Below, in pieces: positions 9,814-42,758 of a stretch of DNA of 64,000 nucleotides; within the stretch, counting starts at the first letter, position 1, and each line of letters begins with the position of its first letter. The stretch covers positions 1 to 64,000 of the forward strand of contig NZ_RZJR01000009.1 in NCBI RefSeq assembly GCF_003990975.1, read 5' to 3'. The notes below the pieces were generated by a model, which saw nothing but the letters and a program-made list of their open reading frames with translations, was not told where the DNA came from and searched no databases. Source of the stretch: Cohnella sp. AR92 (lineage in GTDB: Bacteria > Bacillota > Bacilli > Paenibacillales > Paenibacillaceae). A program made the translations under genes and the position numbers.

Positions 9814-9908
9814 TGCTTCGTCTCCTGCCTATGGACAATTGCCATAATCATCCTATACCTCATATACTACTATAAATCTTCAGATTTGTGTTTGCCCTCT
9901 CGTATTTA

Positions 9909-9937
9909 TTGATGGATGTTGATAGAATTAGTAGAAT
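9909..9937 (+). promoter_or_regulatory. Promoter of the DUF4280-MORN pair
   Basis: TTGATG (9909-9914) and TAGAAT (9932-9937) are exactly 17 bp apart, upstream of the start at 9972. The interval 9814-9971 is a divergent intergenic region, so the minus-strand stalk gene must also be read from here; AT-rich TATAGT/TATAGG-like boxes face that way but no clear -35 pairs with them. Confidence 0.55.
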
Positions 9938-9971
9938 AAAGTTAAATAATGTCACGGTCAAGGGAGTCTAT

Positions 9972-10358
9972 ATGGGACAATTGGTATGCGGAGGCGCAAG
10001 CCTGCAATGCAGCTTCGGAGCGGCGCCGAGCACCTTGATGGTTCTGCCCGCTAATCGGGTTATTCAAGCCATGCCATACGCCAACATCATGGATAATAAG
10101 CCCATGTTGAATATCCTTCCTTTCGGCATGTGCCAATCGCTGGCCAATCCGACGGTTGCCGCCGCGACAGCCGCCAAGTTCGGGACGCTGACACCGATGC
10201 CTTGCATTCCGGTGACCGCAGCGCCATGGGCGCCAGGCTCGCCGTCCGTCATGATCGGCAACATGCCCGCGCTTAACAACAGTTCCAAATGCATGTGCAA
10301 CTGGGGCGGCGTGATCCAGGTCGTTAACCCGGGTCAAATGACGGTTCAAGTTCCTTAA
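9972..10358 (+). CDS. DUF4280 domain protein, PAAR-like
   Basis: A 128-residue DUF4280 protein. I chose the ATG at 9972 (MGQLVCGGASLQCSFGAAP), preceded by AAGGGAG; an in-frame ATG at 9888 would add 28 unrelated residues. The family pattern is plain: an early Cys pair, NIMDNKPMLNILPFGMC, the PMPCIPVTAAPWAPG segment and the final KCMCNWGGVIQVVNPGQ. DUF4280 is regarded as PAAR-like, the fold that sharpens the spike tip of contractile injection systems and carries effectors. The locus at 12-33 kb has no PAAR gene of its own, so this is the best tip candidate (inference). A MORN-repeat gene follows 15 bp downstream. Confidence 0.85.
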   Translation: MGQLVCGGASLQCSFGAAPSTLMVLPANRVIQAMPYANIMDNKPMLNILPFGMCQSLANPTVAAATAAKFGTLTPMPCIPVTAAPWAPGSPSVMIGNMPALNNSSKCMCNWGGVIQVVNPGQMTVQVP

Positions 10359-10373
10359 AGGAGTCGACCCCTG

Positions 10374-12026
10374 TTGATCGAGAAAATCGTAAAGCCCTAC
10401 ATTACCCCCATCGTCAAGAAAATCGTCATGCCGCTCAAGAGGCTGAAGAATTGGCCGAAGCTTCTCGCCAAGTTCATCAAGAAACTCTTCAAGTCGATCC
10501 TTGGACAGAAGGAAATCACCAAAGCCAGCTACGTGAGATTCGGCAACCTCTACGTCTCCAAGAAGCTCATCGTCATCTCGATTCTAGTCCTTCTCGTACT
10601 CTACTTCTTCATCTTTATCCGACCGCCCAAGTTCATCAACAAGATGCTTCACCGTACGCCTTCGATCACGGTGTCGGCAGATGGTCAAGCAGGCGCTTAC
10701 TCCGGCGATGCGAAGCTGAAGAGCAAGGACGGGGACGTCTTGTTCGAAGGCTCCCTCGTGGACGGGCAGTATGACGGCCAGGGCAAGCTGTATTGGGAGA
10801 ACGGCAATTTGAAGGAGCAAGGCACCTATGCCGGCGGGTTGATCACCGAGGGCAGCCGCTATAACGAAGAGGGGCAATTGATCTATACCGGCGCGTTCGC
10901 CGATAACGTCTACGAAGGCCAAGGCAGGCTCTATTATCCGAACGGGAACGTCTCCTATCAAGGAGAGTTCAAAGCGGGCACTCCGAACGGGACGGGAAGC
11001 CGCTATTCGGAATCGGGAGTCCTGCTGTACGAGGGAGGCTTCGCGAACGGCGTCTATAACGGCGAAGGAACGGAGTATGCCGAGGACGGCACGATGATTT
11101 ATCAAGGCGGTTTCCTGGCTGGCAACTACGACGGCACGGGCAAAAAGCTATACGATAACGGGGTTGTCCAGTACAGCGGAGAGTTCATCAGCGGCAAGCT
11201 GTCGGGAGCCGGCTCCGAATTCTACGAGAGCGGCAGCGTCAAATACGAGGGAGCCTTCCTGGCAGGCTTGTACAGCGGCAGCGGTACGCTGTATACGACC
11301 GATGGAACGACGGTCTATGCCGGCGGTTTCCTGAACGGAAGCTATCAAGGAGAAGGAGAATTGTTCGGCAAGACCGGATTGCCGGTTTACAAAGGTTCGT
11401 TCTCCGGCGGCAAGTACCATGGCGAAGGCCAGTCGTTCGACGACCAAGGAAGGCTCCAATATCAAGGCAGCTTCGTCGACGGCAAGTTGAACGGCCTTGG
11501 AACGTGGTATAAGGAAGATGGCAGCGCGATCTACAAAGGATACTTCCGGAATGGGGAGTTGGATCCTTCCGCCTTCCTCGGGTTGTCCGCGGTTCGTCTC
11601 GAAGAGCTTCTGGGCAAGGCAACCGGGGTCGACGTGCTGAACGCGCCTCCGGTCGATCTGGGTTCGGAGCTCTCCGACGATCCGGTCGCCCTAGAGGGAT
11701 CCGCGGAGGAGCTGCCAGAAGCCGCAGCAGGCATCTCGCCTTCCCTGAAGATGAGATTCCAAGAGTTGAAGCTTTCGTTTATCGTCGAGATGGACGATTC
11801 AGGCTCGGGCGAGGCCGCCGTTCAAGAGGTTCAGATCGGCAGCGGAGCTGTCCTTGAACGGATGTACAAGGAGCTCTCCGCGCGCGCGAAGGCCGAAGGG
11901 CCCGCCCTCACGCTGGTCGCGCAATCCGCTTCCGCTTCCTTCTATGCGGAAGGGCTCACCTATCGTTTCGAGCTGGATGGCAAGAAAAACGGGCTCCCGC
12001 TCAGCGGAACGATCGTGAGAGAGTAA
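10374..12026 (+). CDS. MORN-repeat membrane protein
   Basis: A 550-residue protein starting at a TTG preceded by AAAGGAG. Residues 1-63 are basic and probably cytoplasmic, and a single membrane span lies at 65-82. About 11-12 MORN-type repeats of roughly 23 residues follow (about 105-395; pattern YxGxGxxYxxxGxxxYxGxFxxG), then a C-terminal domain (about 410-550) that I do not recognise. MORN repeats form an elongated beta sheet that binds membranes or proteins. It is the second gene of a two-gene unit with the DUF4280 protein and ends at a strong terminator. A role in placing or docking the tip protein or its cargo is inference only. Confidence 0.8.
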   Translation: MIEKIVKPYITPIVKKIVMPLKRLKNWPKLLAKFIKKLFKSILGQKEITKASYVRFGNLYVSKKLIVISILVLLVLYFFIFIRPPKFINKMLHRTPSITVSADGQAGAYSGDAKLKSKDGDVLFEGSLVDGQYDGQGKLYWENGNLKEQGTYAGGLITEGSRYNEEGQLIYTGAFADNVYEGQGRLYYPNGNVSYQGEFKAGTPNGTGSRYSESGVLLYEGGFANGVYNGEGTEYAEDGTMIYQGGFLAGNYDGTGKKLYDNGVVQYSGEFISGKLSGAGSEFYESGSVKYEGAFLAGLYSGSGTLYTTDGTTVYAGGFLNGSYQGEGELFGKTGLPVYKGSFSGGKYHGEGQSFDDQGRLQYQGSFVDGKLNGLGTWYKEDGSAIYKGYFRNGELDPSAFLGLSAVRLEELLGKATGVDVLNAPPVDLGSELSDDPVALEGSAEELPEAAAGISPSLKMRFQELKLSFIVEMDDSGSGEAAVQEVQIGSGAVLERMYKELSARAKAEGPALTLVAQSASASFYAEGLTYRFELDGKKNGLPLSGTIVRE

Positions 12027-12055
12027 CGAGGAACGAAAAACGAAGGCAGCCAATT

Positions 12056-12101: not shown

Positions 12102-12112
12102 TTTGAGTCTCG

Positions 12113-12221: not shown

Positions 12222-13901
12222 TTATGCCTTCGTCGCCGCGGCTTCTTGACGGCCTCTGGAGTGCTCGTTCAAGGTACCTTCCGCATTCGCATCTTCCGAT
12301 GCGTTATCCGCCTTGACGGCCCACCAGCGAATGCGAAGTCTCGTTCGCTCGGTCTTGCCGTGGACCTTGACACCGATGCGGAACGTCCCCTTCTTCGGAT
12401 AATAGACATAGCCGATCGAGACCTTCGGGAGATCGGATGCATGCTCGCTCTTGGCGAAGACGGATTGGTCGCCGCAGTACACCGCGTCTCGGCGGTTCCA
12501 CATCTCCGGCACGATGACCTCGGTCTCTTCCTTCTCGTCCGACAAGCCCGCGGAGATGAATACCGGCCCGCTGCCCAGGCCGTGCTTGATCTCCTCGGAA
12601 TAGAAGTTCCGCTCGCGCCTGTGATACCATTTCTTCTTCGGAGGCGGCAGGATAGAGATCTCCACGACGCCGGACTTCGCCTGCTCTTCCTTCTTCTGCT
12701 CCTCTTGTTCTCCTTCGAACAGCCGGAACTCTTCTTTCAGATCCGGGAAGACCTCCGCCGGGGCGGACACGGCCGGGATCGGCTCCCCGCTGATAACGGC
12801 TTCGATCGCTTCCCTCGTGATGCTTCCTTGAGACAACAGAATCTTGTAGAGCATCGTTGAATTGACGACGTAATCCTGCAGCGGCAACGATTCCACGCTA
12901 TCGATGACATAGGTTGCGCCCATCTGCAGCAGGTTGATCTTGGCCAGGTATACGCACGGATCGGAAGGGGACTCCAACGCGCGATCCAGCGAACGAGAAT
13001 AGAAGGAGCGAATCATCCGCTGCTCCGCGCTCTCCTCGCTGATCTCGATCGAATGCTGGACTCTCGACAGCTCGTTGATCAGCTTGTCCCCTACGATCAG
13101 GCGTGACGATCCGGACTTTGCGCCGATCGTGCGGACCACCCGATTCTCGCCGGGCTCCAAGGGAAGGGCGCGAACGCGGATCGTCCGCTTGTAGACCGTC
13201 TGCCCTCCGTCCGTAGGCTCGGTGAAGCGGATCTTGCCATCCTGGAGCTCTTCCGCAGGCTCGAAGCCGATCCATTCCGGCTCGTATTCGAATTCCACGT
13301 GCGCCGTCTGCAGCGTCTTCTCGATCGTCAGCCGCAGGTCGAATACCTGACCAGGCTCCAAATAACGCGGCACCGTCTGAAGGACGCGTACTTGCGAATC
13401 TCCATACCAGACCGACGTATCCTCGATCAGGTGATCGTATTCCTGAGCGCTTGGCGAAGGGGATTGTTCGCTAATAAACAAGCGATAGCTCTCCAGAATG
13501 CGGTTATGCTCGCTGACGTCGCCGTCGCGTCCCGCCGCGCCGGCCACCGTATGCACCGGCTCTTTGCCTTTCTCGTCGTAAGCGATGCAGAGATACACGT
13601 TCTTGGCGTACTCATTATTCGTGAAGCCGTCCAACTGGGACAGCTTGATCGTAACCGGAGACGGAACGACGATCTCGCGACCCAGTTGATCCAGCGCGGC
13701 CCCCGTCTCGATCGAGATGGATTTGTCGTCGACAGCAACGACTTGAAGCCCGGCGACGATCCCGCTGCCGTGCAGCAGGCGATTGACCAGCCTGCGCTTA
13801 TCGGAGAAGTAAGTCTGTTCCGACATAAAGTCCCGAACGGTCAACAGCTTGCCATAGAAATAACGATTGCGCTCAAATGGGATGTACCTTGATCTGTTCA
13901 T
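12222..13901 (-). CDS. Conserved injection-system protein of unknown function, distal gene of the cluster
   Basis: A 559-residue soluble protein, the last gene of the cluster. Its N-terminus holds a strongly patterned block (RNRYFYGKLLTVRDFMSEQ followed by YFSDKRRLVNRLLHGSGIV, residues 11-49) that I associate with otherwise unnamed proteins in phage-tail-like injection clusters. The middle is beta-rich (about 170-290). Residues about 395-420 form a charged Glu/Lys linker, and the C-terminal 100 residues form a beta-sandwich-like segment. There is no signal peptide or membrane span. Its place next to the gpI-like gene suggests an outer baseplate or fibre-attachment part (inference). Confidence 0.65.
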   Translation of the reverse strand: MNRSRYIPFERNRYFYGKLLTVRDFMSEQTYFSDKRRLVNRLLHGSGIVAGLQVVAVDDKSISIETGAALDQLGREIVVPSPVTIKLSQLDGFTNNEYAKNVYLCIAYDEKGKEPVHTVAGAAGRDGDVSEHNRILESYRLFISEQSPSPSAQEYDHLIEDTSVWYGDSQVRVLQTVPRYLEPGQVFDLRLTIEKTLQTAHVEFEYEPEWIGFEPAEELQDGKIRFTEPTDGGQTVYKRTIRVRALPLEPGENRVVRTIGAKSGSSRLIVGDKLINELSRVQHSIEISEESAEQRMIRSFYSRSLDRALESPSDPCVYLAKINLLQMGATYVIDSVESLPLQDYVVNSTMLYKILLSQGSITREAIEAVISGEPIPAVSAPAEVFPDLKEEFRLFEGEQEEQKKEEQAKSGVVEISILPPPKKKWYHRRERNFYSEEIKHGLGSGPVFISAGLSDEKEETEVIVPEMWNRRDAVYCGDQSVFAKSEHASDLPKVSIGYVYYPKKGTFRIGVKVHGKTERTRLRIRWWAVKADNASEDANAEGTLNEHSRGRQEAAATKA

Positions 13902-13919: not shown

Positions 13920-15980
13920 TCATTTATCCAAACGAGAATCTAATCCGAGTCTCGTATGTTGATCCATTCGATTGTCTAGGCCCAGGTCTATCGTAATGGT
14001 ATGGTGCGGCATGGATGACTTGCCGTCCAGGGTCAGCAAGGTTGGCTCAGACAATACGGTATTCATTCCCAGATAAGAGTGCAGATCCATGTAGACCCAA
14101 GGCTGAAGCACGACCAGCTTGCAGGAGGCGAACGCCGGCTTGAAAGAGTCGATCAAGTGCAGCAGGGATACCCGCTTCATCTCCGTATCGGCGTGCTCCG
14201 ACTTGACCAGCACGTTGAACACGTGCGGATCCGCCGCGTATAACCGCTCCGCCACTTCGCCAAGCTCCGGATTCTCCTTCAACGGTTTTACCTGCTCATA
14301 CTCCAGGATGATCGGCTTCTCGCCGGTGTAGATCGAGACGAGCAGTTCCATCGCCATCTTCGTGCCGCGCAGATTATAGAGAACGTGAGCATGCTTGAGC
14401 AGTTGTCGCAATTGCTCTTCATTCCAATAATCCTCGCCTTCGATCCCCAGCCAGCCAAGCAGCCAGCGCAAGGATCGTCCATCCGTCCCCCCGGCATCGA
14501 ACACTCGCGTGACCTGAGAGATTCGCCGGTCCGTCTCGTCCATGACGGTCTGGAAGATGCTAAGGTATCGGGCGAGAAAGTCTCTGCTAGGCTCGTGCCG
14601 CTGATAGATGGAAGGCAGATGCTCCAGATAAGTGCTTCTGGGAAAATGCACTTCCAAGCTATGCACGACAGGCGCGTGGCTCTCGGAACCGATGAGCTCG
14701 ATGTAGAGCCACAAGTAACGTCCCTTAAGCTTGAACAGCAGCGCATCCTGAGGATCGGCCAGCGGCTTGGACCACAGTCTGGCGAGTTCGGTCAGTTTGG
14801 TCTCCATCGCGATGGCCGGATCCGCGATATAGCGGTCAAGATCCACTTTGCCCGGTCCGATCACCGCTTCCTTGCTGTCGGAGACATAGCAGCGGACGAT
14901 AATCTGGGTATCGTTCTCCTGCGTGCTGTCCATGACGATCTTGTGCCATTCCGTCTCCTCGAATCCGCTGTCCAGGGCTTCGCTGATCCAGATGCCCAGC
15001 CTTCTGTTCAGCGGTTCCCAGACCGCCGTCTCCGAAACGGGACGAATCAAGTGGATGCAGAGTTGCTCCGAATCCAGCAGGTAGAGGCAGCCTTGACCGG
15101 CATACAGCTTCTTCCCGCCTTCGTTCCCCGCGTATCCTCGCTCTATTATCGTTCCATCGATGCGGAAGCGAATAAGAGAATGCGTGCCTTTCGTCTGCTT
15201 CGGATCCAGCAGCCCCCACAGCGTATCATCGCCGTCGCTGCAGATGGATAGCAGCCTGCCCGCATCTTCGGGAATCGGCACCGCATGCGCCGCATTCTCC
15301 TGAAGCCGAATTTGGATGAGCGAGTTCGTTTCCTTGTCCAGGAGCCAGCATTGGCCGTTCCTTCCCAACGTCAGCTCGAATCGTTCGATTGGAACGGACG
15401 ACAAGTCCAACCCTTCAGTCAAAGGAATCGGAATCGAGCCGACAGCCTCCCCCGAGCCGTTAAAGCGTAACAGCCAAACTTCGCTGCGGCCGCTTAAGTT
15501 GGCGAGCACGAGGAAGCCTCCTTCTCCGTCGGTTGCCATCGTCTCCCCGTAGAACGGTTCTCCGTTCCAATTCGAGACCGTCCACCGGATCTGGGAATTC
15601 TCGCTAGACACCGACTGCAAGGTCGTCTCCAGATCCGGCAGCATGACGATTACCGAATCGCGAGTGATGGCGAAGCGCGCCCGACGGCCGGACTTGGAGA
15701 GGTCCGTCGAGACGATCCTCTCGATGTGGCTGCTGGCCAGGTCCGTTCGCCAAACGACTCCGTCCCCGTCGAGCAGGAACCATCGTCCGTCGACGTCCGC
15801 CGCAGCCGCCGCTTCAATCGGAGGAACAAGCTCCGGGAAGCGAAGCATATGCCGACGGACATGCCGGTACACGAACTCGCTCTCTATCGTCACGCCATTC
15901 TTGACCATCGCAAGCTGGCTGCCGGTGCCGCGCCTCCAATCGGGAGGCTGACGGAAAGAGAAATATTTAGGATCATTCAC
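13920..15980 (-). CDS. Phage tail protein I-like baseplate protein (TIGR02242 type) with N-terminal repeat domain
   Basis: A 686-residue protein. Residues about 455-590 match the tail-protein domain found in contractile injection clusters: EHLPSIYQRHEPSRDFLARY, then LRWLLGWLGIEGEDYWNEEQ and LYNLRGTKMAMELLVSIYTG. In phage P2 and related systems gpI-like proteins sit at the baseplate wedge. The N-terminal 330 residues have recurring WFLLDGDGVVW-, CWLLDKETNSLI- and LYLLDSEQLCI-like strands suggesting a beta-propeller, not found in short gpI proteins and possibly facing outward. It lies 19 bp upstream of the 559-residue gene and 18 bp downstream of the baseplate-J gene, in one operon. Confidence 0.85.
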   Translation of the reverse strand: MNDPKYFSFRQPPDWRRGTGSQLAMVKNGVTIESEFVYRHVRRHMLRFPELVPPIEAAAAADVDGRWFLLDGDGVVWRTDLASSHIERIVSTDLSKSGRRARFAITRDSVIVMLPDLETTLQSVSSENSQIRWTVSNWNGEPFYGETMATDGEGGFLVLANLSGRSEVWLLRFNGSGEAVGSIPIPLTEGLDLSSVPIERFELTLGRNGQCWLLDKETNSLIQIRLQENAAHAVPIPEDAGRLLSICSDGDDTLWGLLDPKQTKGTHSLIRFRIDGTIIERGYAGNEGGKKLYAGQGCLYLLDSEQLCIHLIRPVSETAVWEPLNRRLGIWISEALDSGFEETEWHKIVMDSTQENDTQIIVRCYVSDSKEAVIGPGKVDLDRYIADPAIAMETKLTELARLWSKPLADPQDALLFKLKGRYLWLYIELIGSESHAPVVHSLEVHFPRSTYLEHLPSIYQRHEPSRDFLARYLSIFQTVMDETDRRISQVTRVFDAGGTDGRSLRWLLGWLGIEGEDYWNEEQLRQLLKHAHVLYNLRGTKMAMELLVSIYTGEKPIILEYEQVKPLKENPELGEVAERLYAADPHVFNVLVKSEHADTEMKRVSLLHLIDSFKPAFASCKLVVLQPWVYMDLHSYLGMNTVLSEPTLLTLDGKSSMPHHTITIDLGLDNRMDQHTRLGLDSRLDK

Positions 15981-15998: not shown

Positions 15999-18155
15999 TC
16001 AGAATGACGTAATATATTCAATCTCGTGATCGCCGGAGACGACCAGACCGTTCGGCGGAATGCGAACGTCGCCGCCTTCCTCGCGATAGACGCCCCTGCC
16101 GTCCGCCATCAGCCACACATCCTGGATGTACCGGATGCCCGGCACCCGATGGATCACGTCATAGACATCGCTCTTGTAGATCGGCTTGCCGAATTCCCAG
16201 CCGTTCAGCGTGTCTTGCCCGTAAGGCTGAAGCCATTCGGACAACTTGGCTTTCACTTCATTCTCTCTTCCCTCATAGCGAGGTTCGACGACAATAACCG
16301 CTCGCACGGTTACCCTGACGTATTCCGGCGGAATAATGTGCAGCTTGGTGGTGAGCAGGCGGTAAGGCTCGAGATGCCTGCGCACGGTTTCTATCATGCC
16401 TTCGGTCGGTTTGGGCAAGGATCGCTTGCTGTAAGGCACGATGACGATCGAGGTATCGCTGAAGGAGCGTTCCGCCGGATAATTCGACAGCGACGTCTTG
16501 TACCCGGGAATCGCCTTCACCCTCGCGATTCGCAAGCCAGGGATCTCCTGCACCCGTCTCTCCAAGTCTTCGGCCGTAACGCCGCATTTCGGCTCCAGCA
16601 CCGCCATTCTTGCCCGCTGCATCGCTTCCTTCAGCGACTCGGGCTCCGCACCGCCATAAGCGGGATACAGGTTCGTCACCTGCAAGGCGGGGGCAAAGTC
16701 GATCTCATTGATGGCGACAGCCTTGATGTTGCCAGCTTCGCCTACGCCTGTTCGATAGCCCGTTATTCGGATGTTGGGAACCGCGGACGAGGGAGGAACC
16801 GCTCCATACAATCCGTCGGAGAAGCGGATGACTCCCTCTTCTTCATCGATAACGTAGTGGAAGCTTCCCGAATGGGATTCGTCAAAGTCTTGCACTCTCT
16901 CCCAATCGTACCAGATCACCCGGTTGCTGCTTGCCTCTACCCATCCGACCTGCAAGCTGAATTGATCGGGAAGCATCGGCTGGAGGGGAATCGGATAGGC
17001 TTGTCCGGAGATTCCGGTGCCGATTCCTAGGTAAGCCAGATCCTCGAACTCCGCCGTCGCGGCGATCACCCTTATGCCACGCTCTCCGGCCGGAAGAAGA
17101 ACACCCTCGTTAAAGAGAATGGATGCCTGCCCGTCGCCGCGATGGACGCTGTACGCCTCTTCGCTTACGTCGATCCATCCTCCATCTTCCCGGAGGAATT
17201 GAACCGAGATCCAGCCGGTCTGGAACAAAGCATGATCAAGCCGCAGAGGTCGACCGTCAGCCTCCGATCGGTCGAAGCGTTCCGTCAGGATCATGGTTTG
17301 TCCCTGCTTCGCGAACACTTCGTTCCACATTAATCTTCGTATGTAGGGAGGATCGCTGTATTCCCCTCGGATAAGCTCCGCCTTCATTCGGTGCACCTTG
17401 CCGGCGCCGGAAGGGATCTGGAACAGAATCGGGCCGCTCTGATGGAAGCCATAAGATTCGTCGCGCTCCAGATCGATCGGCTCCCAACGTCCGCCGGTCT
17501 CCGCGGTTTCTCCGTTCTCCCCGCTTTCCCTCCAATAGCTCCATTCCACCTGCCCGGAAGGCGTGAAATGCTTGTACCGGGCGGGAATGCGGTGATCCGA
17601 ATCCTGATCGTGCAACTGGAACCAAAGCGACAAAGGCGTTGCTTCCGGCAAAGACTCATTAAATTCAATCACCATGCTCGATCCGGCCTTGCTGTCCTTA
17701 CCGAAGGGATAGAACGGCGCGCTGCCGGACTCGAAATCGTCCGTCACTTCCGCGGTTCCTTCTTCCGTATGGATGAATATCTTTCTCTGCGTATCCGGCA
17801 GGATGGTAAGCGGACGTACCGTCTCGAAGGGAAGATCCCCGACTCGAAGCAGCGTTCCATACGGGATGAGAAGCTGCTTGGACGCCTTGGAGAAACTGAC
17901 CGAGGTCGTCGCCGGCGAGCGATCCCGCGGCGCCTCCCCTAACAGCTTGAGGAATTTGCGTTCGTGGCTGGCCGTCACTCGATCCAGCTGGAACTGCTGC
18001 ATCTCGAGGTGCCAAGCCAGCAGCTCCAACAAGGTGATTCCGGGATCGTGCTCGTTCTCGTCCGTCCATGCCGGGAATAAGCGGGGAATCAAATCTCTTG
18101 CTTCGCGGACAAGCTCTTCGAAAGTGCGATCATCCAGATTCGGCAGTGGCAACAT
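15999..18155 (-). CDS. Baseplate J-like assembly protein (TIGR02243 type)
   Basis: A 718-residue baseplate protein of the J-like family (Afp12/Pvc12-like). Its N-terminus has the usual pattern FPAWTDENEHDPGITLLELL then MQQFQLDRVTASHERKFLKL. The J domain covers roughly residues 460-560, with GVGEAGNIKAVAINEIDFAP and MAVLEPKCGVTAEDLERRVQ. It forms the wedge ring around the hub and spike that triggers sheath contraction. The ATG follows GGGGGAAG and the gap to the longer J-like gene upstream is 12 bp. It is a full-length, intact copy. Confidence 0.88.
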   Translation of the reverse strand: MLPLPNLDDRTFEELVREARDLIPRLFPAWTDENEHDPGITLLELLAWHLEMQQFQLDRVTASHERKFLKLLGEAPRDRSPATTSVSFSKASKQLLIPYGTLLRVGDLPFETVRPLTILPDTQRKIFIHTEEGTAEVTDDFESGSAPFYPFGKDSKAGSSMVIEFNESLPEATPLSLWFQLHDQDSDHRIPARYKHFTPSGQVEWSYWRESGENGETAETGGRWEPIDLERDESYGFHQSGPILFQIPSGAGKVHRMKAELIRGEYSDPPYIRRLMWNEVFAKQGQTMILTERFDRSEADGRPLRLDHALFQTGWISVQFLREDGGWIDVSEEAYSVHRGDGQASILFNEGVLLPAGERGIRVIAATAEFEDLAYLGIGTGISGQAYPIPLQPMLPDQFSLQVGWVEASSNRVIWYDWERVQDFDESHSGSFHYVIDEEEGVIRFSDGLYGAVPPSSAVPNIRITGYRTGVGEAGNIKAVAINEIDFAPALQVTNLYPAYGGAEPESLKEAMQRARMAVLEPKCGVTAEDLERRVQEIPGLRIARVKAIPGYKTSLSNYPAERSFSDTSIVIVPYSKRSLPKPTEGMIETVRRHLEPYRLLTTKLHIIPPEYVRVTVRAVIVVEPRYEGRENEVKAKLSEWLQPYGQDTLNGWEFGKPIYKSDVYDVIHRVPGIRYIQDVWLMADGRGVYREEGGDVRIPPNGLVVSGDHEIEYITSF

Positions 18156-27881: not shown

Positions 27882-27887
27882 GGCCAA

Positions 27888-28082: not shown

Positions 28083-28084
28083 GC

Positions 28085-30744: not shown

Positions 30745-30761
30745 TTTGATTGCCCGATGTC

Positions 30762-30797
30762 CTAGCAGCGGCATGCATCATGCCGATCTGCCGACAT
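30762..30797 (-). promoter_or_regulatory. Possible 11-codon leader ORF upstream of the sheath start
   Basis: AAAGGAGG (30803-30810 on the minus strand) is followed six bases later by ATG at 30797 and an 11-codon frame (MSADRHDACRC) ending in TAG at 30762. The sheath ATG at 30744 begins 17 bases after that stop and has no good site of its own. This suggests reinitiation or coupled translation. It could instead be a chance frame. Confidence 0.4.
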
Positions 30798-34944: not shown

Positions 34945-35280
34945 TTAGGATACGAATGCCAGCGCTTCTTCTTCCGACCGGAACAAGGAGAAGATGGTCG
35001 TAAAGCCCGATATGCGAAAAATCTCGTTGACGTTGTCGTTCAGTCCGAACAGGGCCAGCTTGCCCCCCGCCGCTTTCGTTTTCTTCACGGCCAGCAGCAT
35101 GACCCTAAGCCCCGCGCTGCTGATGTAATCCAACTGGCTCAGATCGAAGACAAATCTATTGAAGCCTCCGTCCGCAAGCTGCAGGAATTGTTCCTCGAGC
35201 TGCCGCATCGTCGTTCCGTCAAGCCTGCCGCCGATTCTTACCGTACGGACGTCCCCTTGCCCTTCGATCGTAATTTCCAT
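34945..35280 (-). CDS. STAS-domain anti-sigma factor antagonist (RsbV-like)
   Basis: A 111-residue STAS protein. The phosphorylation loop LDYISSAGLRVML (about residues 50-62) has the canonical Ser pair, and the N-terminal strands GQGDVRTVRIGGRLDGTTMR match the family. In unphosphorylated form it would bind the HATPase kinase encoded 14 bp upstream; the PP2C encoded 22 bp downstream would reset it. No sigma factor gene lies in the window, so the final target of this switch is unknown. Confidence 0.9.
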   Translation of the reverse strand: MEITIEGQGDVRTVRIGGRLDGTTMRQLEEQFLQLADGGFNRFVFDLSQLDYISSAGLRVMLLAVKKTKAAGGKLALFGLNDNVNEIFRISGFTTIFSLFRSEEEALAFVS

Positions 35281-35293: not shown

Positions 35294-35734
35294 CTACTCC
35301 GTACGCCTCTGCGCTTTTTTTCTCATCGTGAACTCATTCCCGGCTTCCGTCCGCAGATAGGAACACGAATCCATCTTGCTCTTGATCAGATAGATTCCGA
35401 GCCCGCCGATCGATCGCTCCTCCGCGGTTAGCCCAACATCCGGCTCCTCCTGTTCCAGGGGATTAAAGGCCCTCGCTCCATCCCGGAACGTCGCGACGAC
35501 ATTCGGGCCTTCGATGCGCAATTCCGCCTGAATCGGCGGCGCATGCCCCGGCTGGATTCCGCCTTCCTCGTAGCCGTGCACGACGATGTTGATAAACCAT
35601 TCCTCGCACGCAAGCTGCAGATCCATCCTCAATCCATCCGCTAGCCGATGATGCCCGCAGAACGAATCGATCTCCTCGCTAAGCGTTGCCCATTCCTGCA
35701 GCGAAGGGGACAGTCGAACGTTTATCTCCCGCAT
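35294..35734 (-). CDS. HATPase serine kinase, anti-sigma factor (RsbW-like)
   Basis: A 146-residue GHKL-fold kinase. The N box is CEEWFINIVVHGYEEG (about residues 44-59), the G1 region is FRDGARAFNPLEQEEPDVGL and the G2 box is RSIGGLGIYLIKSKMDS. The family phosphorylates the STAS antagonist and binds a sigma factor or another partner. The order kinase, STAS, phosphatase is compact (gaps of 13 and 21 bp), so the trio is one unit. It lies 18 bp after the MFS-like/cNMP gene, linking it to that membrane protein. Confidence 0.88.
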   Translation of the reverse strand: MREINVRLSPSLQEWATLSEEIDSFCGHHRLADGLRMDLQLACEEWFINIVVHGYEEGGIQPGHAPPIQAELRIEGPNVVATFRDGARAFNPLEQEEPDVGLTAEERSIGGLGIYLIKSKMDSCSYLRTEAGNEFTMRKKAQRRTE

Positions 35735-35752: not shown

Positions 35753-38700
35753 TTAACCGAGCTTCAGCACCATATCTTCCATCATGCGAAGGCGATTGCC
35801 GATCGAACGAAGCAAGCCGACTCCGACGTCCGGATACAGCCGCACGAGCCTCGCCGCCTCTTTGCCTTCGATCTCCAGAACCCGAACCTGATCGAAGATC
35901 ACCTGCGCGGATACGTTGGACGGGCGTTCGTCGAACAGCCCTCCTTCCCCGATCGATTGCTTCGTCCCGATAATGCCGATCGTGCCGACGGTTCCGCCTT
36001 CGTTCTCTCCGCCTATCTCCACGTGCCCGTCCACGACGACGAACATGGAGGACGCCCGCTCGCCCTGCTTCATCAGGAAATCTCCTTCCGAGTAGACGCG
36101 CTCATGCGCAATGCTGGCGATGCGTCCCAATTCCTCGATCGAGATGTCTTGGAAAAGCGGCACTTGCTTCAGGAACACGATTTTGTCGAGTGCGCTAAGA
36201 AATTCCCAATTGCTCAATGCGGTCGCCCCTTCCGCTGCTCCGGCTTTAATGGCGATAGCCTGCAGCCATGGATCGGTCACTGCCTCCATCAAATTCTCTT
36301 GCTCGGCCGAAGGCTGTGCCGCCGTTCGATTCGGCTTCTTGCCGGATTCCGGCTGGCCTTGCTTCTGGTAGAAGGCCAACAAAGCGGCTGACAGCTTCGC
36401 GTTGCCAAGGCCCTCCGACAGAATCTCCAGCCCGTTGTCGCGAGTCTCTTCGTCGTCTCCTTCGAGAGCGCGCCGCAATTGCGGAATCGAACGTTCATCC
36501 CCGAAGCGAAGCATGACCGTCCAGATCGTATCGAGCAGAAGTTGCGTCAGCTCCTTGCTTCGCAACCGCGCGAGCTCCGTCCACTCCTCTTGCCCCGCCT
36601 CCCGGATTCGTTCCACGTACGCCCGGTTGGCGCGAAGCTCGCGAAGCTTCTGGATGCAGGAAGGCACGATCGTCTCGTGAATGTCTTTGTCCGTGCCGAA
36701 CTCGTTGATAACGGATACCGCCGCCCTCCACACCTCATCGTTAGGAGAGGACAAGAAGCGATGATAGACGGGCATGCCCGCCGTTCCGATATGGATAAAG
36801 GATTGCTCGATCGCCGCGCGAAGCTCCAGATCCGCACCGATCAACAGCTCCCCAAGGTTGGTCGCCGTCTCTTCGTCCCCGATGCGGCCGAGAGTCTTCA
36901 CGGCGGCGTTCCTCACGAACGGAATCGGCTCCAGCAGGCACATCATGACATCGAAGTAGAACTCCTTAAGCTGGCGCTCCCCGATAATGTCGCATGCCAG
37001 CACGGACGAAGCGTTTCTCTCGCCTAGCCAAGCCCGGAGCTCTCGGGCAAGCGACTCCGAAGGAGGAATCACCCGAAGCGCTTCCGCTTGAACCAGACGG
37101 CTCTCGTCGTATCGGGCTTTGCGGATCCACCGTTCCCGTTCGCTCACCCATCCGCTCGATGCGAACAGTCTGCGATATACGATCGCTCGCACCTCTTCGT
37201 CCGGATCGCGGATGAGCGCCTCCAGGCGCTCCCCCTTGAACGAATTCCAACTGCTTGCCGGAATGGCGGACAACGCCTCCGGCCTCGACCGCCCTCCGCG
37301 CCGCTCCGCGTATTGCAGCAGCTCATCGGCGGCAGCGGCGTCCGGGTTGCTGGCGAACAGCTCGATCGTCAGCTGCTGTACCGTCTCGTTCGGGTGTCTC
37401 AACTGATCGAGGAGAGTCTTCTTAACCCGGTCGTTCTTCATCGACTCGAGGAACTCGCTCATGAAGTCCTTGACGGACGTCGTGCCGATCTGGATGTAAC
37501 GGACCAGCTCTTTGATATAGAGATGGCGGTCCACCCAGGCCAGCAGGAACAGGACGGCAGCCATGATCGTTCCGATGATCGCCTGCCAGGTAAGCGACAC
37601 CCCCAGGGCCGTATGCAGCATGGAAGCTCCCGAGCCGAGCAGAACCCCCGCCGACGCCGCAACGCCCTGCGCGATATACCGGAAGCCGTCCCGATGCTTG
37701 AGCGGCAGCATTTTGAAGAAAAACTGATAGCTCGGTTCCGCGAAATAATAGAGAAGCAAATAAGAGAGGCAATAGCCGGTCGAGACGGCGGCTAGCGCCC
37801 AGCTCGAGTCGATAAAGAGGCTGACGAAGCCGAAGCTGCCTAGGAAGACGATCGCGATCGCGAAGATCGTATTGCTGGCGCCAAGCCAATCGATCAGCCG
37901 GGCTGCGAACAGCTGCAGCAGGAAGGCGGCGCAGAAGAGGACGATAACCATGAGACCGTAGAAGGATGCAAGCTCCGCTTCATCGGTATAGACGGCCTGC
38001 GCCGACGTGAAGTATTGGTATTCGATGAGAAAATAAACGGCCGGCATCAGCGTCATGATTCCGATAACCGTCATCAGGAAAGGCGAACGAAGCGATTGCT
38101 TCAAATAGTAGGAAGTAGAAGGCCTCTCCTCTTGATCCTCTTCTTCGGCTTCCCGCTTGAAGGTAAGCGGCAGCAGATATTGCTTGATCGACTTGAGGAA
38201 ATTAGGCAGTCCTGCCAGCAAGAAGCCGGCGGCAATAAGATAGAGGAACTCCGGGCCGATCAGCGGCGCAAGCAGCTTGGTCAACACGCCTGCCGCGATC
38301 CCGCCAAGAATGGCGGACAACACGAACACGGGCATCACGCGCTTGGCCTGTTGGGTAGGGCACAAATCGAACGCCGTGCTCCACATGAGCAGCGTCTGCT
38401 GGCGGATGACGAAGTTCGAGCAGAGGAACAGGATGACATAGAAGCCGAGCCAAGAGAGATCCAACATCCGGTATAGAAGCAGGACGGCTCCGTTCACGAC
38501 CCCTATCGATATGAAAAAGGCGTACATCGATACCATGAAGCGAGGCTTCGACAGTCGCTGCGACAAGAACGAGAACGCCCAGCCTTCAAGCGGCATCAGG
38601 ACCGCTTCGGCAAGGTACATCCAAGGCAAGTACTGCGTACCGACCCGGCTGTTGAACAGCGCCATGAAGGACGTATAGTTGACCATCTCGGACAACCCCG

Positions 38701-38809
38701 CCAGAAAGAAGACGGAGCCCATGATCCAGACCTTGTGACGGTCCTCGTATCGGAGATTGAATAACGCCTGAAGCTTCGCAAGCACGCGCGGTTCCACCTT
38801 ATCTAGCAA
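35753..38809 (-). CDS. MFS/nucleotide-translocase-like membrane protein with HEAT repeats and a cyclic-nucleotide-binding domain
   Basis: A 1018-residue protein starting at a TTG nine bases after GGAG. Residues 1 to about 440 hold about 12 membrane spans resembling the MFS or ATP/ADP translocase fold. Residues about 450-810 are helical HEAT-like repeats (VRAIVYRRLFASS, FVRNAAVKTLGRIGDEETA). Residues about 870-1005 form a cyclic-nucleotide-binding domain (LFQDISIEELGRIASIAHER, GEGGLFDERPSNVSAQV, the latter at the phosphate-binding cassette with its Arg). It begins the operon that includes the partner switch, so it may be a membrane sensor. Which nucleotide it binds is unknown. Confidence 0.82.
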   Translation of the reverse strand: MLDKVEPRVLAKLQALFNLRYEDRHKVWIMGSVFFLAGLSEMVNYTSFMALFNSRVGTQYLPWMYLAEAVLMPLEGWAFSFLSQRLSKPRFMVSMYAFFISIGVVNGAVLLLYRMLDLSWLGFYVILFLCSNFVIRQQTLLMWSTAFDLCPTQQAKRVMPVFVLSAILGGIAAGVLTKLLAPLIGPEFLYLIAAGFLLAGLPNFLKSIKQYLLPLTFKREAEEEDQEERPSTSYYLKQSLRSPFLMTVIGIMTLMPAVYFLIEYQYFTSAQAVYTDEAELASFYGLMVIVLFCAAFLLQLFAARLIDWLGASNTIFAIAIVFLGSFGFVSLFIDSSWALAAVSTGYCLSYLLLYYFAEPSYQFFFKMLPLKHRDGFRYIAQGVAASAGVLLGSGASMLHTALGVSLTWQAIIGTIMAAVLFLLAWVDRHLYIKELVRYIQIGTTSVKDFMSEFLESMKNDRVKKTLLDQLRHPNETVQQLTIELFASNPDAAAADELLQYAERRGGRSRPEALSAIPASSWNSFKGERLEALIRDPDEEVRAIVYRRLFASSGWVSERERWIRKARYDESRLVQAEALRVIPPSESLARELRAWLGERNASSVLACDIIGERQLKEFYFDVMMCLLEPIPFVRNAAVKTLGRIGDEETATNLGELLIGADLELRAAIEQSFIHIGTAGMPVYHRFLSSPNDEVWRAAVSVINEFGTDKDIHETIVPSCIQKLRELRANRAYVERIREAGQEEWTELARLRSKELTQLLLDTIWTVMLRFGDERSIPQLRRALEGDDEETRDNGLEILSEGLGNAKLSAALLAFYQKQGQPESGKKPNRTAAQPSAEQENLMEAVTDPWLQAIAIKAGAAEGATALSNWEFLSALDKIVFLKQVPLFQDISIEELGRIASIAHERVYSEGDFLMKQGERASSMFVVVDGHVEIGGENEGGTVGTIGIIGTKQSIGEGGLFDERPSNVSAQVIFDQVRVLEIEGKEAARLVRLYPDVGVGLLRSIGNRLRMMEDMVLKLG

Positions 38810-38950: not shown

Positions 38951-41779
38951 GTGTTCGACAGGATATTCAAGAGGAATTCGAAGCCGCCTCAAAGCAATCA
39001 ACCGCAGCCGCAACCGAGCGGACCATCCGGCAAGCAGTCGAAGCAGCAGAATCAGCCACCGCTCGCGCCGGCGCGGAAGAGTCCCGAAGATCAGCGCAAG
39101 GACGATCTCGCCGCCGAAGGGAAGACCCAGATCCCTTTAATCGCCGATAATATCTATAAAGCGATGCTCGCCAAAGCCGGCGAGCAAACCTCGCAATTCC
39201 TCCTGACCAACAAAGAAGCGCAAGCGTTGCGCGAATCGATCAAGAAAGCGGCCAACAAGAAGGTAGAAGACGAAATCAAGGGCATGGATCCGAGTTCGGG
39301 GTATTCCGAATCCCAGAAATCCGATGCCAAGAAGCATGCCCTGGAGCAGGTTCAGAAGGCGAAGTTCCTGGAGGGAACTTTGAAGAAAGCGGCGCTGGAT
39401 ACGGTGAAAGCGACCATAAAAGAGGACAACAAGGAGAAGCTTGAGAAAAAAGCGCAGCCCGTCTACGATAATGCCCAGCCTAAACTCAAGATGCCGCTGG
39501 ACAAACAGAAAGACGAAGTCAAGGAACAAGCGGAGAAGGAAGGACAGACCGAGTCCAACAGCTTGCTCGCCGGATTCGTCACGCAGATCAAGAAGGATCT
39601 GGCGGGCAAGATCAAGACGAATGCCGCATTCCTTAACGGCGACATAGAAGCAGACGCCATCGATACGGTGGGCAAGGAATTAACGGAACGCAAGCGGCTG
39701 GATGGCAAATTGACCGTCGATAACCAGTTTATTGATTCCCTTTACGATAACAAGCTGCTGGCGCCGATCAAACAGGCCGTGGTGATGAAGCTCGGCTACG
39801 ATCGCGGCTTCTTCAGCAGAACCTCGGACGAGACCAAGAAGTTCGTCAAAGAGATGTCCGACGCGGCCGTGAACAAGGTAGGCGCGGAGATCGACACTGC
39901 GGTGGCCAACGACAATCGAACGAAGTCCAGCGAGGTCAGCAAGAAATACTACGGGATGATGGCGAGGGTCCAGGCGAGCTCGCTCACGAAGGGTTCGATC
40001 CAAGCCGGCATCGAGGAGAAAGCGGATGAGATTGCCAAGAAAGTCCTGCTCGACGCCAAGGCCAAGGACGGATTGACGGCTGCCGCCCAATCGTCCGCCT
40101 ACGATGCGGCCAGAGTCAACGAAGGCGATGGCGAGAAGATCAGTGCCGCCTCCAAAAAAGGGGCTCAAATAAAAGCAATCGAGCTGCTGAAGGCCAACCA
40201 GTCGATCGCCGTGCTGGAAGCGCGGAAGATCACCAAAGGCGTAAAAGAGGACAAAGACAAGAACATCGCGGCGGCCCCTAAGGATCAAACGAAACGGGAC
40301 GAAATCGCGAAGAAGATCGAGTCGAAGATCGACGAGAAAGACGTCGCGGGCAAGGCCGTCAATCAAACCCTCGAAGCGGATACGCTTGACGGCGGCTTCG
40401 CCAAGGTCGGCAAGATTATCGACCTCGCGGTGCCGAATCGCGGCGATTCCGCCGCGTTCGAATTCGAGCTCAAGATTCCGGTCGAACAGAGCGGCTCCGC
40501 CTACATTCTGTTCGGCTTGGCCGCGGAAGCGGAGCGAGACGAGAAAGATCTGACCGTGAACTCCCAGTTTACGTTCGGCGCCGGCTTCCAGACGTTCGGC
40601 TTGGATGCCAACTTCCGGGCAGGGTTGTTCTTGGAGAGCAAAGCGAAGGATTCCGTCGCCGTTATGAAGCTGTTCTCCTACGGCATGTACAGACAGATGC
40701 GCAATATCTCCACGACCGCCGCCGAATACTTCTGGGGCCAAGGCGGCAAGTCCGGCATGTCGAAGACGGAAGAAGCCGAATTGTGGGCGGCCATGATCGA
40801 ACAGAAGCATATGAAGCAAGGCAATTACGTCGACGTCGGCCTGATGGGCAAGCTGCAGGGAGACATCAACGCGGGCGTCGCCAAGATGGGCGGCGAGATT
40901 GGCTATAAGCGGCTGAACCATTATGATAAAGAGACGATCCTCGACAAGATGGGCGGCGCCTCCAATACCACGGTCGGCTTCGGAGACGGTACCGACTCCA
41001 CCGCGGCCGGCCTCAAGAATAAAGCCGACAAGATGGCTTTCGGCGTTCTCAAAAACGCGAACAAGCACGTCATCGAAGCCGGCGCGACAACCGAGGTCAA
41101 ACTGGGCAATACGAGCGTCGGGTTCGGCCTAGAGGGCTCCCTTGCCTTCGTTAACGGCAAGATGAGAGCGCTGGAGATCGCCGCCAAAGGCTCGATTCCG
41201 TTCGCCTACGGAGAAGACGTCGCCGAATGGGCCAAGATTGCCTCCAAGTGGGTCACGCCGATCGTCGGAGGGGTCAAGAACGTCGTCGGCTTGCTGCATA
41301 GCAAGGTAGGAAACAAACCGGCAGCCGGCTCGCCGGTCAAAAAGAACGAGAACAAAGGTTTGAGAGGCGCGGGTTCCGTGCTCGACACCGGCTCGGACGT
41401 GCTGTTCACCGTACCGCAATTCGACACGCTAGGCAAGGGGTTAGCCGAGAAAATCCAAGGCGACGAGACGATCAACGACACCGTGCGCGGCTGGCTCACC
41501 GGAGAGAAGACCACGAGCGCTACCGAGAAAGCGAACAAGGTTCTGCTCTCCAGCACGCTCGACCTGTCGCTTAACTTCGAGAAGGAATGGAACAAAGGCG
41601 GCATCTCCAAGGGCTGGGAGATCGCGCTCGAAGCCGCGGAGACGAAGACGTTCGAGGTGGATGCGGAAGTGGTCAAGGTATCCGTCGAGAAATCCAAGAG
41701 CCTGGGCAAGCTGGGCTTCGGCATGAACGATAAAGGCGAACTGGAGTTCAAGGGCGGCTTGCTGGGATTCGAGAATTAA
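38951..41779 (+). CDS. 942-residue protein, candidate injection-system cargo
   Basis: No family is recognised. It starts at GTG after AGGGGGA. Residues 1-60 are rich in Gln, Pro, Ser and Lys and look disordered. Residues about 60-500 are Lys/Ala/Glu-rich helix. Residues about 500-830 are a Gly-rich beta region (AEAERDEKDLTVNSQFTFGA and similar), and about 840-942 a further beta segment. There is no signal peptide or membrane span, and no DUF4157 HExxH motif. It is transcribed away from the injection operon, with the YbjN-like gene 28 bp behind. Disordered N-termini mark known Afp/PVC cargo, so cargo is a reasonable guess, but a structural role is also possible. Confidence 0.6.
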   Translation: MFDRIFKRNSKPPQSNQPQPQPSGPSGKQSKQQNQPPLAPARKSPEDQRKDDLAAEGKTQIPLIADNIYKAMLAKAGEQTSQFLLTNKEAQALRESIKKAANKKVEDEIKGMDPSSGYSESQKSDAKKHALEQVQKAKFLEGTLKKAALDTVKATIKEDNKEKLEKKAQPVYDNAQPKLKMPLDKQKDEVKEQAEKEGQTESNSLLAGFVTQIKKDLAGKIKTNAAFLNGDIEADAIDTVGKELTERKRLDGKLTVDNQFIDSLYDNKLLAPIKQAVVMKLGYDRGFFSRTSDETKKFVKEMSDAAVNKVGAEIDTAVANDNRTKSSEVSKKYYGMMARVQASSLTKGSIQAGIEEKADEIAKKVLLDAKAKDGLTAAAQSSAYDAARVNEGDGEKISAASKKGAQIKAIELLKANQSIAVLEARKITKGVKEDKDKNIAAAPKDQTKRDEIAKKIESKIDEKDVAGKAVNQTLEADTLDGGFAKVGKIIDLAVPNRGDSAAFEFELKIPVEQSGSAYILFGLAAEAERDEKDLTVNSQFTFGAGFQTFGLDANFRAGLFLESKAKDSVAVMKLFSYGMYRQMRNISTTAAEYFWGQGGKSGMSKTEEAELWAAMIEQKHMKQGNYVDVGLMGKLQGDINAGVAKMGGEIGYKRLNHYDKETILDKMGGASNTTVGFGDGTDSTAAGLKNKADKMAFGVLKNANKHVIEAGATTEVKLGNTSVGFGLEGSLAFVNGKMRALEIAAKGSIPFAYGEDVAEWAKIASKWVTPIVGGVKNVVGLLHSKVGNKPAAGSPVKKNENKGLRGAGSVLDTGSDVLFTVPQFDTLGKGLAEKIQGDETINDTVRGWLTGEKTTSATEKANKVLLSSTLDLSLNFEKEWNKGGISKGWEIALEAAETKTFEVDAEVVKVSVEKSKSLGKLGFGMNDKGELEFKGGLLGFEN

Positions 41780-41807
41780 AAGTTTGAACCGATAAGGAGA
41801 ACGATCC

Positions 41808-42758
41808 GTGATGGCGAACCAACGATCTACTCTGAATACGAAGCTTCCCGTTCAGCTTCTGGCGCTTGACGGCACGTCGATTCCCGCTACGGCGATCCAT
41901 ATCGCGTTGCAATATCAAGATTCCGTAGGAAGCTGCGAGATGACGCTGGAAGTCGGAGGCGCGACCGCTCAAGCCATTCTGGAACAGGAATGGTTCCACC
42001 TCTTCGCCAGCGCCAGGCTGGATCAGGCTTCCTTCGAGCCCGATCGACCCGTGCGATTGCTTGTCTCCCTGCGCCCGGCCATCGTTCGGAAGCTCGCTGC
42101 CCAAGGCTTGGACGCGGAGGACGTCTTCAACGCCTTGCTTCCGAACGCGGATGCTGCGGCTCTCCCCCTCTCGGTCCCGCTTAAACAGGCTGAGAGCTGG
42201 CTGGCGATCGAGCTGAAGCAAGAGCTCGCGCTGCCGGAGGAACTCACGAACGAGGGGACGATAAGCATCGGCTTGCGCACGAATTGGCGCGAGAAGCTGG
42301 CCGTTGGACCGGGTTTACGGGAAGGGAGCGGCACGAAGTCTTCCGTTTCCTTATACGCGCAGATGGAAAGCTACTTATCGAGCAAAGGCCTGAAGGCCGA
42401 GCCGATCAACGAAGAACTGATGAAGCTTCGATTCCATGCGGAAGAAGCCGAATGGGGCTGCGTCGTTCAGGTCGACGAGGACGCAAGGCTTCTTGTTCTC
42501 TACTCGGTCTTCCCGCACGCGATTCCGGCTCCCCTTCGCGAGGAGACCGCGCTGGCGTTCATGGGCGAGAATTACGGCAGCCTGCTGGGCAACTACGAGA
42601 TGGACACGGAAGACGGCGAGCTGCGCTACCGTTCGACGATCCCCGCCGGACCCGAGCTGGACTATGGGATCCTATCGGCGGTATTGGCGGAGCATCTCAA
42701 CGTCATGAGACACTTTATTCCGATTATCGCCGACGTCAGCGAGCAGAACGGGCTGTAA
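41808..42758 (+). CDS. YbjN-like domain protein, candidate chaperone of the preceding gene
   Basis: A 316-residue protein starting at GTG or at the ATG one codon later; AAGGAG precedes both. The N-terminal 160 residues are not recognised. Residues about 185-310 resemble the YbjN family (SLYAQMESYLSSKGLKAEPI, then WGCVVQVDEDARLLVLYSVF and EHLNVMRHFIPIIADV). YbjN domains share a fold with type III secretion chaperones. Paired with the 942-residue protein in one two-gene unit that ends at a strong terminator, it could keep that protein in a loadable state (inference). There are no catalytic motifs. Confidence 0.65.
   Translation: MMANQRSTLNTKLPVQLLALDGTSIPATAIHIALQYQDSVGSCEMTLEVGGATAQAILEQEWFHLFASARLDQASFEPDRPVRLLVSLRPAIVRKLAAQGLDAEDVFNALLPNADAAALPLSVPLKQAESWLAIELKQELALPEELTNEGTISIGLRTNWREKLAVGPGLREGSGTKSSVSLYAQMESYLSSKGLKAEPINEELMKLRFHAEEAEWGCVVQVDEDARLLVLYSVFPHAIPAPLREETALAFMGENYGSLLGNYEMDTEDGELRYRSTIPAGPELDYGILSAVLAEHLNVMRHFIPIIADVSEQNGL

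Follow-up and report, generated by a model that had tools for sequence, protein, structure and literature searches.

Introduction

A locus of Cohnella sp. AR92 raises the question of how a contractile injection system of a Gram-positive bacterium produces DUF6760, a protein whose reading frame is shifted against that of the gene it overlaps, and whether this arrangement belongs to a length control of the kind used by phage tails. The locus lies on contig NZ_RZJR01000009.1 (assembly GCF_003990975.1), from a source genome of 6.02 Mb in 36 contigs, and the stretch analysed here comprises its positions 1 to 64,000 (hereafter the window). Judged by its content, the locus is almost certainly a complete extracellular contractile injection system (eCIS) in a Gram-positive. 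DUF6760 is probably made there by programmed -1 ribosomal frameshifting from a tail assembly chaperone gene. Among the matches listed in literature searches, mostly open-access, on eCIS with frameshifting, chaperones, tape measures and DUF6760, there was no report of a programmed frameshift in an eCIS, the search for DUF6760 itself listing no paper at all, and a conserved recoding signal in an eCIS has apparently gone unreported so far.

A row of minus-strand genes from about 38.8 down to 12.2 kb encodes the injection machine and the regulatory genes upstream of it, and by its layout we call it an operon. In order of transcription it reads MFS-HEAT-cNMP, HATPase_c_2, STAS, GAF-SpoIIE, AAA+ ATPase, Pvc16_N, sheath and tube 1; then a 125-aa open reading frame (ORF) overlapping DUF6760, tube 2, a 1056-aa ORF, CIS_tube-LysM, hub and spike; and finally gp25, two Baseplate_J, Tail_P2_I and a CIS13-type protein. 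Plus-strand genes stand at both flanks: the stretch at 9.9-12.0 kb holds DUF4280 and MORN, and that at 39.0-42.8 kb a 942-aa orphan followed by a YbjN-like gene. The range of 9888..42758 assigned to the system in the preliminary description of this DNA thus contains the operon, but it mixes in plus-strand neighbours at both ends.

Probable frameshifting in the chaperone gene

Two overlapping genes separate the two tube genes of the window:

28085..28462, minus strand: tail assembly chaperone, zero-frame product of 125 aa (PHROG 508, 1.1e-7)
27888..28112, minus strand: DUF6760, putatively entered through a -1 frameshift (PF20546, 1.1e-19)

The chaperone ORF lies under a longer overlapping frame and had been overlooked in the preliminary description. 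The ORF caller lists a 196-aa protein in which the DUF6760 match begins at residue 132 and the first two thirds run out of frame over another gene, and this overlap conceals the chaperone from any caller of longest ORFs. PHROG 508, 'tail assembly chaperone', was matched at E<=0.1 by the 125-aa ORF and all 40 relatives (41/41; best 3.6e-9). The match to Pfam Gp41_Mu (0.059) was below the cut-off, and a PDB search with the chaperone profile gave no match. A viral scan returned one chaperone relative, 32% over 68 residues, beside a gene that resembles gp25 by eye.

Relatives of the locus were collected by sheath match (the best 80 of 354) and gene strings were drawn up for these 80 loci. Reading frames were counted in 79 regions, namely the window and 78 of the 80 loci, two being left out that had no usable pair of tube 1 and tube 2 genes. 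DUF6760 lies in the -1 frame relative to the chaperone ORF in 79/79 regions, and a -1 read from the slip codon enters DUF6760 without meeting a stop in every one of them (79/79). The slippery heptamer of the window is TTTTTTG (T_TTT_TTG) at 28106-28112 on the minus strand. An in-phase heptamer of the form X_XXY_YYZ, mostly T_TTT_TTG or T_TTT_TTA, is found within the last 45 nt of the chaperone ORF in 69/79 regions, whereas the two remaining phases of the same 45 nt give 0/79 and 1/79. Elsewhere in the chaperone ORF heptamers occur at 27-29 of 8611 codons in every phase (about 0.3%). When synonymous codons were resampled in 200 trials, a heptamer appeared in 8.4 loci on average and in 16 at most, compared with the 69 observed, and 53 of the 63 distinct chaperone tails bear one. 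The DUF6760 frame has no ATG, GTG or TTG within 30 nt of the chaperone stop in 65/79 regions. A wider Bacillota sample (n=12; its row L100 is the window itself, and some of its genomes are possibly near species of the first set) gave the -1 frame in 11/12, the exception having a disturbed chaperone frame, and a TTT-type heptamer in 7/12. In a separate comparison of nine loci, both Paenibacillaceae loci of this sheath type have a T-type heptamer.

As far as sequence can tell, a chaperone gene with an in-phase slip site and a -1 overlapping extension is the pattern of the phage tail assembly chaperones. Excerpts of PMC5009743 describe phage tails that frameshift to yield a chaperone form and a chaperone-extension form, which serve the tape measure and the tube, with Mu using a -2 shift. 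In the abridged text of a genome survey (PMC3711429), one cluster of tail assembly chaperones of phage origin is given a frameshifting level of about 7%, and a title in the reference list of PMC13222765 has the tail assembly chaperones of T4-like phages made by a non-frameshift mechanism.

Several observations weigh against programmed slippage or favour an alternative, in which a weak start close to the chaperone stop would allow DUF6760 to be produced on its own through termination-reinitiation and the T-rich heptamer would reflect an amino-acid constraint. In the window a GTG stands 5 nt past the chaperone stop, and separate initiation of DUF6760 is conceivable there. The overlap is of the ATGA type in the loci of Haloferax and Rhizobium and of the GTGA type in that of Streptantibioticus, while in Streptomyces cadmiisoli the annotated DUF6760 start is a CTG one base before the stop. 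By eye, many loci carry a G-rich, Shine-Dalgarno-like stretch ahead of the chaperone stop. A sister eCIS type in Paenibacillaceae (L158-L167) has the -1 overlap in 10/10 and the heptamer in 0/10; these loci are mostly without a near start codon, and GGGGA(A/G) directly precedes the chaperone stop in 10/10. Both the heptamer and a near start are absent from a divergent Paenibacillus and from one cyanobacterium, and the DUF6760 of another cyanobacterium is not in the -1 frame. Within the main set 10/79 loci are without the heptamer, and 8 of those 10 are also without a nearby start. RNA structure downstream of the site is weakly indicated (mean z -0.64 vs +0.10; below -2 in 10/69 vs 0/69), DUF6760 matched mainly PHROGs without known function, and the loci are related by descent, so that none of these counts are independent. 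Reinitiation nevertheless appears unlikely to us, as a canonical start within 30 nt is absent from 65 of the 79 regions and resampling that preserves the amino acids yields so few heptamers on average. Because the sister type has no heptamer, other types of overlap are found elsewhere and the window has its GTG, the slip site seems characteristic of a single branch of the Bacillota, with reinitiation conceivable beside it.

Homologs of both chaperone and DUF6760 occur in the Haloferax locus, which has two in-phase heptamers of different composition. No chaperone was found in 8 of 17 eCIS loci, including those of the multi-sheath S. clavuligerus, Cereibacter and Roseomonas, and two of the eight gave only weak DUF6760 matches (E 0.018 and 0.36). 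In the cyanobacterial loci L093 and L094 the chaperone ORF is present in tandem copies.

Identity and placement of the locus

The remaining parts of the machine were assigned as follows:

31440..33443, minus strand: AAA+ ATPase with winged-helix domain (Pfam 4.7e-35 and 1.2e-22)
30868..31443, minus strand: Pvc16_N (DUF4255) tube terminator (Pfam 9.5e-24)
29059..30774, minus strand: single contractile sheath (Pfam 7.3e-21; PDB 9ezm 2.8e-124)
28567..29004, minus strand: tube 1, gp19-like (Pfam 1.1e-44)
27438..27887, minus strand: tube 2, gp19-like (Pfam 1.5e-41)
23592..24221, minus strand: CIS_tube and LysM tube initiator (Pfam 8.7e-34 and 9.4e-8)
22471..23574, minus strand: baseplate hub, YQBQ/GPD (Pfam 9.1e-12 and 1.8e-9)
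21740..22474, minus strand: spike, Phage_base_V (Pfam 6.6e-27)
21315..21716, minus strand: gp25 baseplate wedge (Pfam 7.2e-26)
18168..21296, minus strand: Baseplate J-like 1 (Pfam 1.9e-10)
15999..18155, minus strand: Baseplate J-like 2 (Pfam 8.9e-12)
13920..15980, minus strand: Tail_P2_I / CIS12-type baseplate protein (Pfam 2.2e-6; CIS12_fam 2.4e-51, below cut-off)
12222..13901, minus strand: CIS13-type protein of 559 aa, candidate fibre or baseplate anchor (NCBIfam CIS13_fam 1.3e-33, below cut-off)

The locus combines a sheath and gp19-type tubes with AAA+ and Pvc16_N and with a LysM initiator, hub, spike, gp25 and J proteins. Since AAA+ and Pvc16_N, which set eCIS regions apart from phage tails in the portions of PMC10020575 at hand, are both present, the locus counts as an eCIS by content. 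The parts that the preliminary description had named (sheath, two tubes, LysM, hub, spike, gp25, two J, gpI-like, DUF4255 and AAA+) are all borne out by Pfam matches on the minus strand.

An R-type tailocin or degenerate prophage was considered and dropped as a highly improbable reading. The gene order does resemble that of PBSX-type tails, and the chaperone belongs to a phage family. However, AAA+ and Pvc16_N are in the locus, and the 50 window translations scanned (the ORF list holds 194 ORFs of at least 90 aa) contained no match to a capsid, portal, terminase or integrase family, in line with the preliminary description. The sheath is also closer to eCIS loci than to phage sheaths, with identities to phages of at most 33.1% among the 15 rows listed of 1593 records and no record of at least 60%. 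What that description had named as counter-evidence to an eCIS, a close phage sheath match beside capsid genes, was not found among these rows, and the scanned flanks held no head-gene match.

By sheath, the locus is closest (among the best 80 of 354) to Paenibacillus sacheonensis, Cohnella fermenti and further Paenibacillaceae, and the best-matching genomes are of Paenibacillus, Cohnella and Ammoniphilus. A tree of 27 sheath sequences places the window inside a fully supported clade of nine Bacillota rows that includes Heliobacterium, Desulfocucumis and Syntrophomonas; the phage branches are very long, and the tree does not separate one phage from the eCIS sequences. A tenth row from Bacillota, that of Paenibacillus cellulosilyticus, groups outside this clade with Rhizobium and Haloferax and resembles the sister eCIS type. 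Identities to plasmid rows are 30-51% (50 listed, many of them eCIS loci). The nearest solved sheath is PDB 9ezm (2.8e-124), a code that occurs once in the retrieved text of a haloarchaeal CIS paper (PMC11566945), where Bacillota are named as the closest Cis11 relatives.

It is correct that the AAA+ and terminator genes come first in order of transcription, but the idea that order and parts list are atypical, and with it that of a divergent lineage, did not survive as novelty. AAA+ and Pvc16 lie 5' of the sheath on the same strand in 65 of 72 testable relatives (8 of the 80 loci, with less than 8 kb 5' of the sheath, were left out), and a few have the ATPase inverted or unseen. According to excerpts of Sarris 2014 (PMC4122934), most organisms encode the sheath in a single ORF, two J genes and a separate hub and spike are found in Firmicutes and in several further groups, the position of the ATPase is variable and PAAR is missing from some groups. 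As 65 of 72 relatives share the order and these features were in print in 2014, the gene order and parts are ordinary for the Bacillota eCIS group. Whether a fibre is missing, as had also been stated, is uncertain: the NCBIfam CIS13 match of the protein at 12222..13901 spans residues 9-154 and does not reach the curated cut-off, and there was no Pfam match. PDB searches with this 559-aa protein and with the Tail_P2_I protein gave no match either.

Tape-measure candidate and proposed length control

The locus had further been described as having no classic tape measure. This was not borne out, as one ORF occupies the position of a tape measure with that architecture:

24239..27409, minus strand: tape-measure candidate of 1056 aa, conserved ends and length-variable middle (position and patterns)

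This ORF is flanked by tube 2 and LysM. Across the 67 loci extending as far as LysM, the longest ORF at this position measures 1420 aa at the median and 2481 aa at most. Using patterns made for this analysis, we found the C-terminal pattern in 63/67 and the N-terminal pattern in 45/67, and three of the four loci without the C-terminal pattern are short fragments. A role as length ruler is somewhat favoured by these features. It is weakened by the Pfam and NCBIfam scans, in which the 1056-aa protein (scanned for the window alone) matched no family. Alternatively, the ORF may encode a tape-measure-related cargo, or serve as both, like Tme of S. davawensis, which the consulted part of PMC11126660 presents as a tape-measure-related effector, directly 5' of the baseplate genes and the largest ORF in its cluster. 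Ruler and cargo roles are both possible because Tme sits in so similar a place, immediately upstream of the baseplate genes, and the very variable length of the middle region would suit a cargo. Against this, neither DUF4157 nor a toxin family was matched in the window protein, the only one scanned, and tail assembly chaperone genes are present. We hold the cargo role to be a real but lesser possibility.

In the scheme that we infer for slippage, chaperone binding, length control and regulation, ribosomes would translate the 125-aa chaperone (a G-like form), and a fraction would slip back one base at T_TTT_TTG to give a DUF6760 fusion (a GT-like form). If the lambda pair gpG/gpGT is a guide, the 1056-aa tape measure would be covered by the chaperone and tube subunits would be brought in by the DUF6760 extension, so that tube length would be fixed before sheath and terminator join. 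The co-inherited sensor, the MFS-HEAT-cNMP protein and an RsbU/V/W-like module (see below) may make the production or the firing of the machine depend on stress to the envelope or the energy supply. As a whole, this picture of a Bacillota-type eCIS with a frameshifted chaperone, a tape measure and coupled regulation seems likely to us.

PAAR-like protein and MORN-repeat protein

The preliminary description had also found no PAAR, and the plus-strand flank does encode a PAAR-like protein, next to a MORN-repeat protein:

9888..10358, plus strand: DUF4280 PAAR-like protein, candidate spike tip (Pfam PF14107 5.4e-37)
10374..12026, plus strand: MORN-repeat protein, candidate membrane anchor or partner (MORN 2.3e-24; a single TM-like hydropathy segment near the N-terminus, at residue 56)

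DUF4280 is a PAAR-like family (PAAR_H), and its subtype H3 is over 80% eCIS-linked according to passages of PMC8651086. Co-occurrence was counted in 148 family genomes, 15 with this sheath type and 133 others. A DUF4280 ortholog (at least 68% identity) is present in 15/15 of the former and 1/133 of the latter (Fisher 1.2e-19, uncorrected for relatedness). Of 23 relatives, 20 have it on the contig of the Tail_P2_I gene, no more than 25 kb from that gene; of the others, two have it on another contig and one about 64 kb away. Its surroundings were examined in 20 of the 23 genomes, and the MORN gene is paired with it in 20/20 of these regions. Against the PDB the only match of DUF4280 was SalCis10 (E 0.71), and a fold predicted from four sequences had a mean pLDDT of 33 and was not used further. 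In family genome G082 a DUF4280 ortholog lies beside a degenerate-cyclase gene and no matching sheath was found there, which may be an eCIS remnant or an assembly gap. On an IMG/VR contig (L156:2459-4228), a protein that by eye resembles a tail fibre has a DUF4280-like stretch at its C-terminus and follows gp25-, J- and I-like ORFs.

Instead of being released, the machine might stay in the producing cell and be docked to its cytoplasmic membrane, in the T6SS-like mode of haloarchaea or that of the Streptomyces CIS, perhaps with MORN as anchor. This is a tentative possibility that we lean against. It agrees with the nearest solved sheath, whose code stands, in the text retrieved from PMC11566945, with a membrane-bound CIS, and with the TM-like segment (seen in the window copy) of a MORN protein that accompanies DUF4280 so regularly. 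On the other hand, eBAP3 fibres reported in Bacillota point to outside targets, according to an excerpt of PMC12923769.

Putative regulatory and accessory genes

The genes upstream of and around the machine are the following:

6014..8764, minus strand: HAMP sensor with degenerate class III cyclase-like domain, 916 aa (HAMP 2.2e-8; Guanylate_cyc 0.0022, below cut-off)
33568..34923, minus strand: GAF-SpoIIE (RsbU-like) phosphatase (Pfam 4.1e-49)
34945..35280, minus strand: STAS (RsbV-like) protein (Pfam 7e-21), also overlooked earlier
35294..35734, minus strand: HATPase_c_2 (RsbW-like) kinase (Pfam 7.1e-20)
35753..38809, minus strand: MFS-HEAT-cNMP membrane protein (HEAT_2 4e-14, cNMP_binding 3.3e-12; MFS_1 4.6e-7, below cut-off)
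38951..41779, plus strand: 942-aa orphan, candidate cargo (one NCBIfam match at 0.0063, below cut-off; no Pfam match)
41808..42758, plus strand: YbjN-like protein, candidate partner of the 942-aa protein (Pfam 0.0012, below cut-off)

The functions of these genes are those that we infer from families and co-occurrence. The HAMP protein, at full length, and the MFS-HEAT-cNMP protein are each found in 14/15 genomes with this sheath type and 1/133 others (Fisher 1.5e-17 for each, uncorrected). Homologs of the HAMP protein occur in 17/20 DUF4280 regions, and in Brevibacillus L014 one stands directly 5' of AAA+. Cyclic-nucleotide production by the 916-aa protein was ruled out because both metal-binding Asp positions are lost in 12/12 aligned sequences.

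RsbU-, RsbV- and RsbW-like genes are adjacent in the window, and SpoIIE, STAS and HATPase lie 5' of the sheath in 31/72 loci. General scans of the 50 translations matched no sigma-factor family, the genome not having been searched for one, and the literature matches listed contained no work joining CIS and partner-switch terms. The 942-aa orphan is present in 3/148 genomes, all with this eCIS, a distribution that suits a variable cargo. Near the island, the window also contains an LrgA-LrgB holin-like pair (4333-5387), and sensor kinase, AraC-type response regulator and ABC transporter genes (45835-52985) that are apparently unrelated neighbours.

Comparison with known systems

In Afp/PVC, with classical Afp13 and Afp14, the AAA+ and terminator genes come last. 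The window shares with these systems the core machine, AAA+ and terminator, and departs from the traits of their subtype in its one sheath and in AAA+ and terminator lying 5' of the sheath. Three sheaths and a single vgrG-like hub-spike are given for Afp/PVC in excerpts of PMC4122934. The Firmicutes PLTS/eCIS systems of the same source, represented by Brevibacillus brevis, also have a pair of J genes, a hub separate from the spike, AAA+ together with DUF4255, and one sheath, and its Fig. 1 legend gives Mu-gp41-like ORFs in some genomes; in contrast, frameshift, tape measure and regulatory module are not described in these excerpts.

The haloarchaeal CIS of Halogeometricum borinquense (clade IIa) is probably the origin of 9ezm, as judged from part of its paper, and is further alike in the chaperone and DUF6760 homologs of Haloferax, although DUF6760 starts there at the ATGA overlap. 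The Streptomyces CIS (subtype IId, CIS-Sc) has two tubes and a Cis2 sheath in the excerpted text, and its NCBIfam baseplate families CIS12 and CIS13 match window proteins below the cut-off; its sheath differs, the identity to the window being 30-45% among the Streptomyces plasmid rows listed. The chaperones of lambda (gpG/gpGT), P2 and Mu have a frameshifted extension as well (PMC5009743, in excerpt), whereas the window case belongs to an eCIS, in which a second tube gene follows the chaperone before the tape-measure candidate is reached.

It is conceivable, at a little short of an even chance, that Bacillota eCIS keep the length control of phages, with a two-form frameshifted chaperone and a tape measure. 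In this proposal the machine would be gated by a co-inherited stress-sensing set (the pseudo-cyclase sensor, the MFS-HEAT-cNMP protein and the RsbU/V/W-like switch), and possibly docked to the membrane by the MORN protein that is paired with the PAAR-like tip. The retrieved portions of the haloarchaeal paper report that no tape measure was found, and those of the Streptomyces paper neither a conventional fibre nor a typical tape measure. A slip-site chaperone beside a long, length-variable ORF offers concrete, testable candidates for length control. The co-inherited sensor set may in turn help to find out what sets such machines off in Paenibacillaceae.

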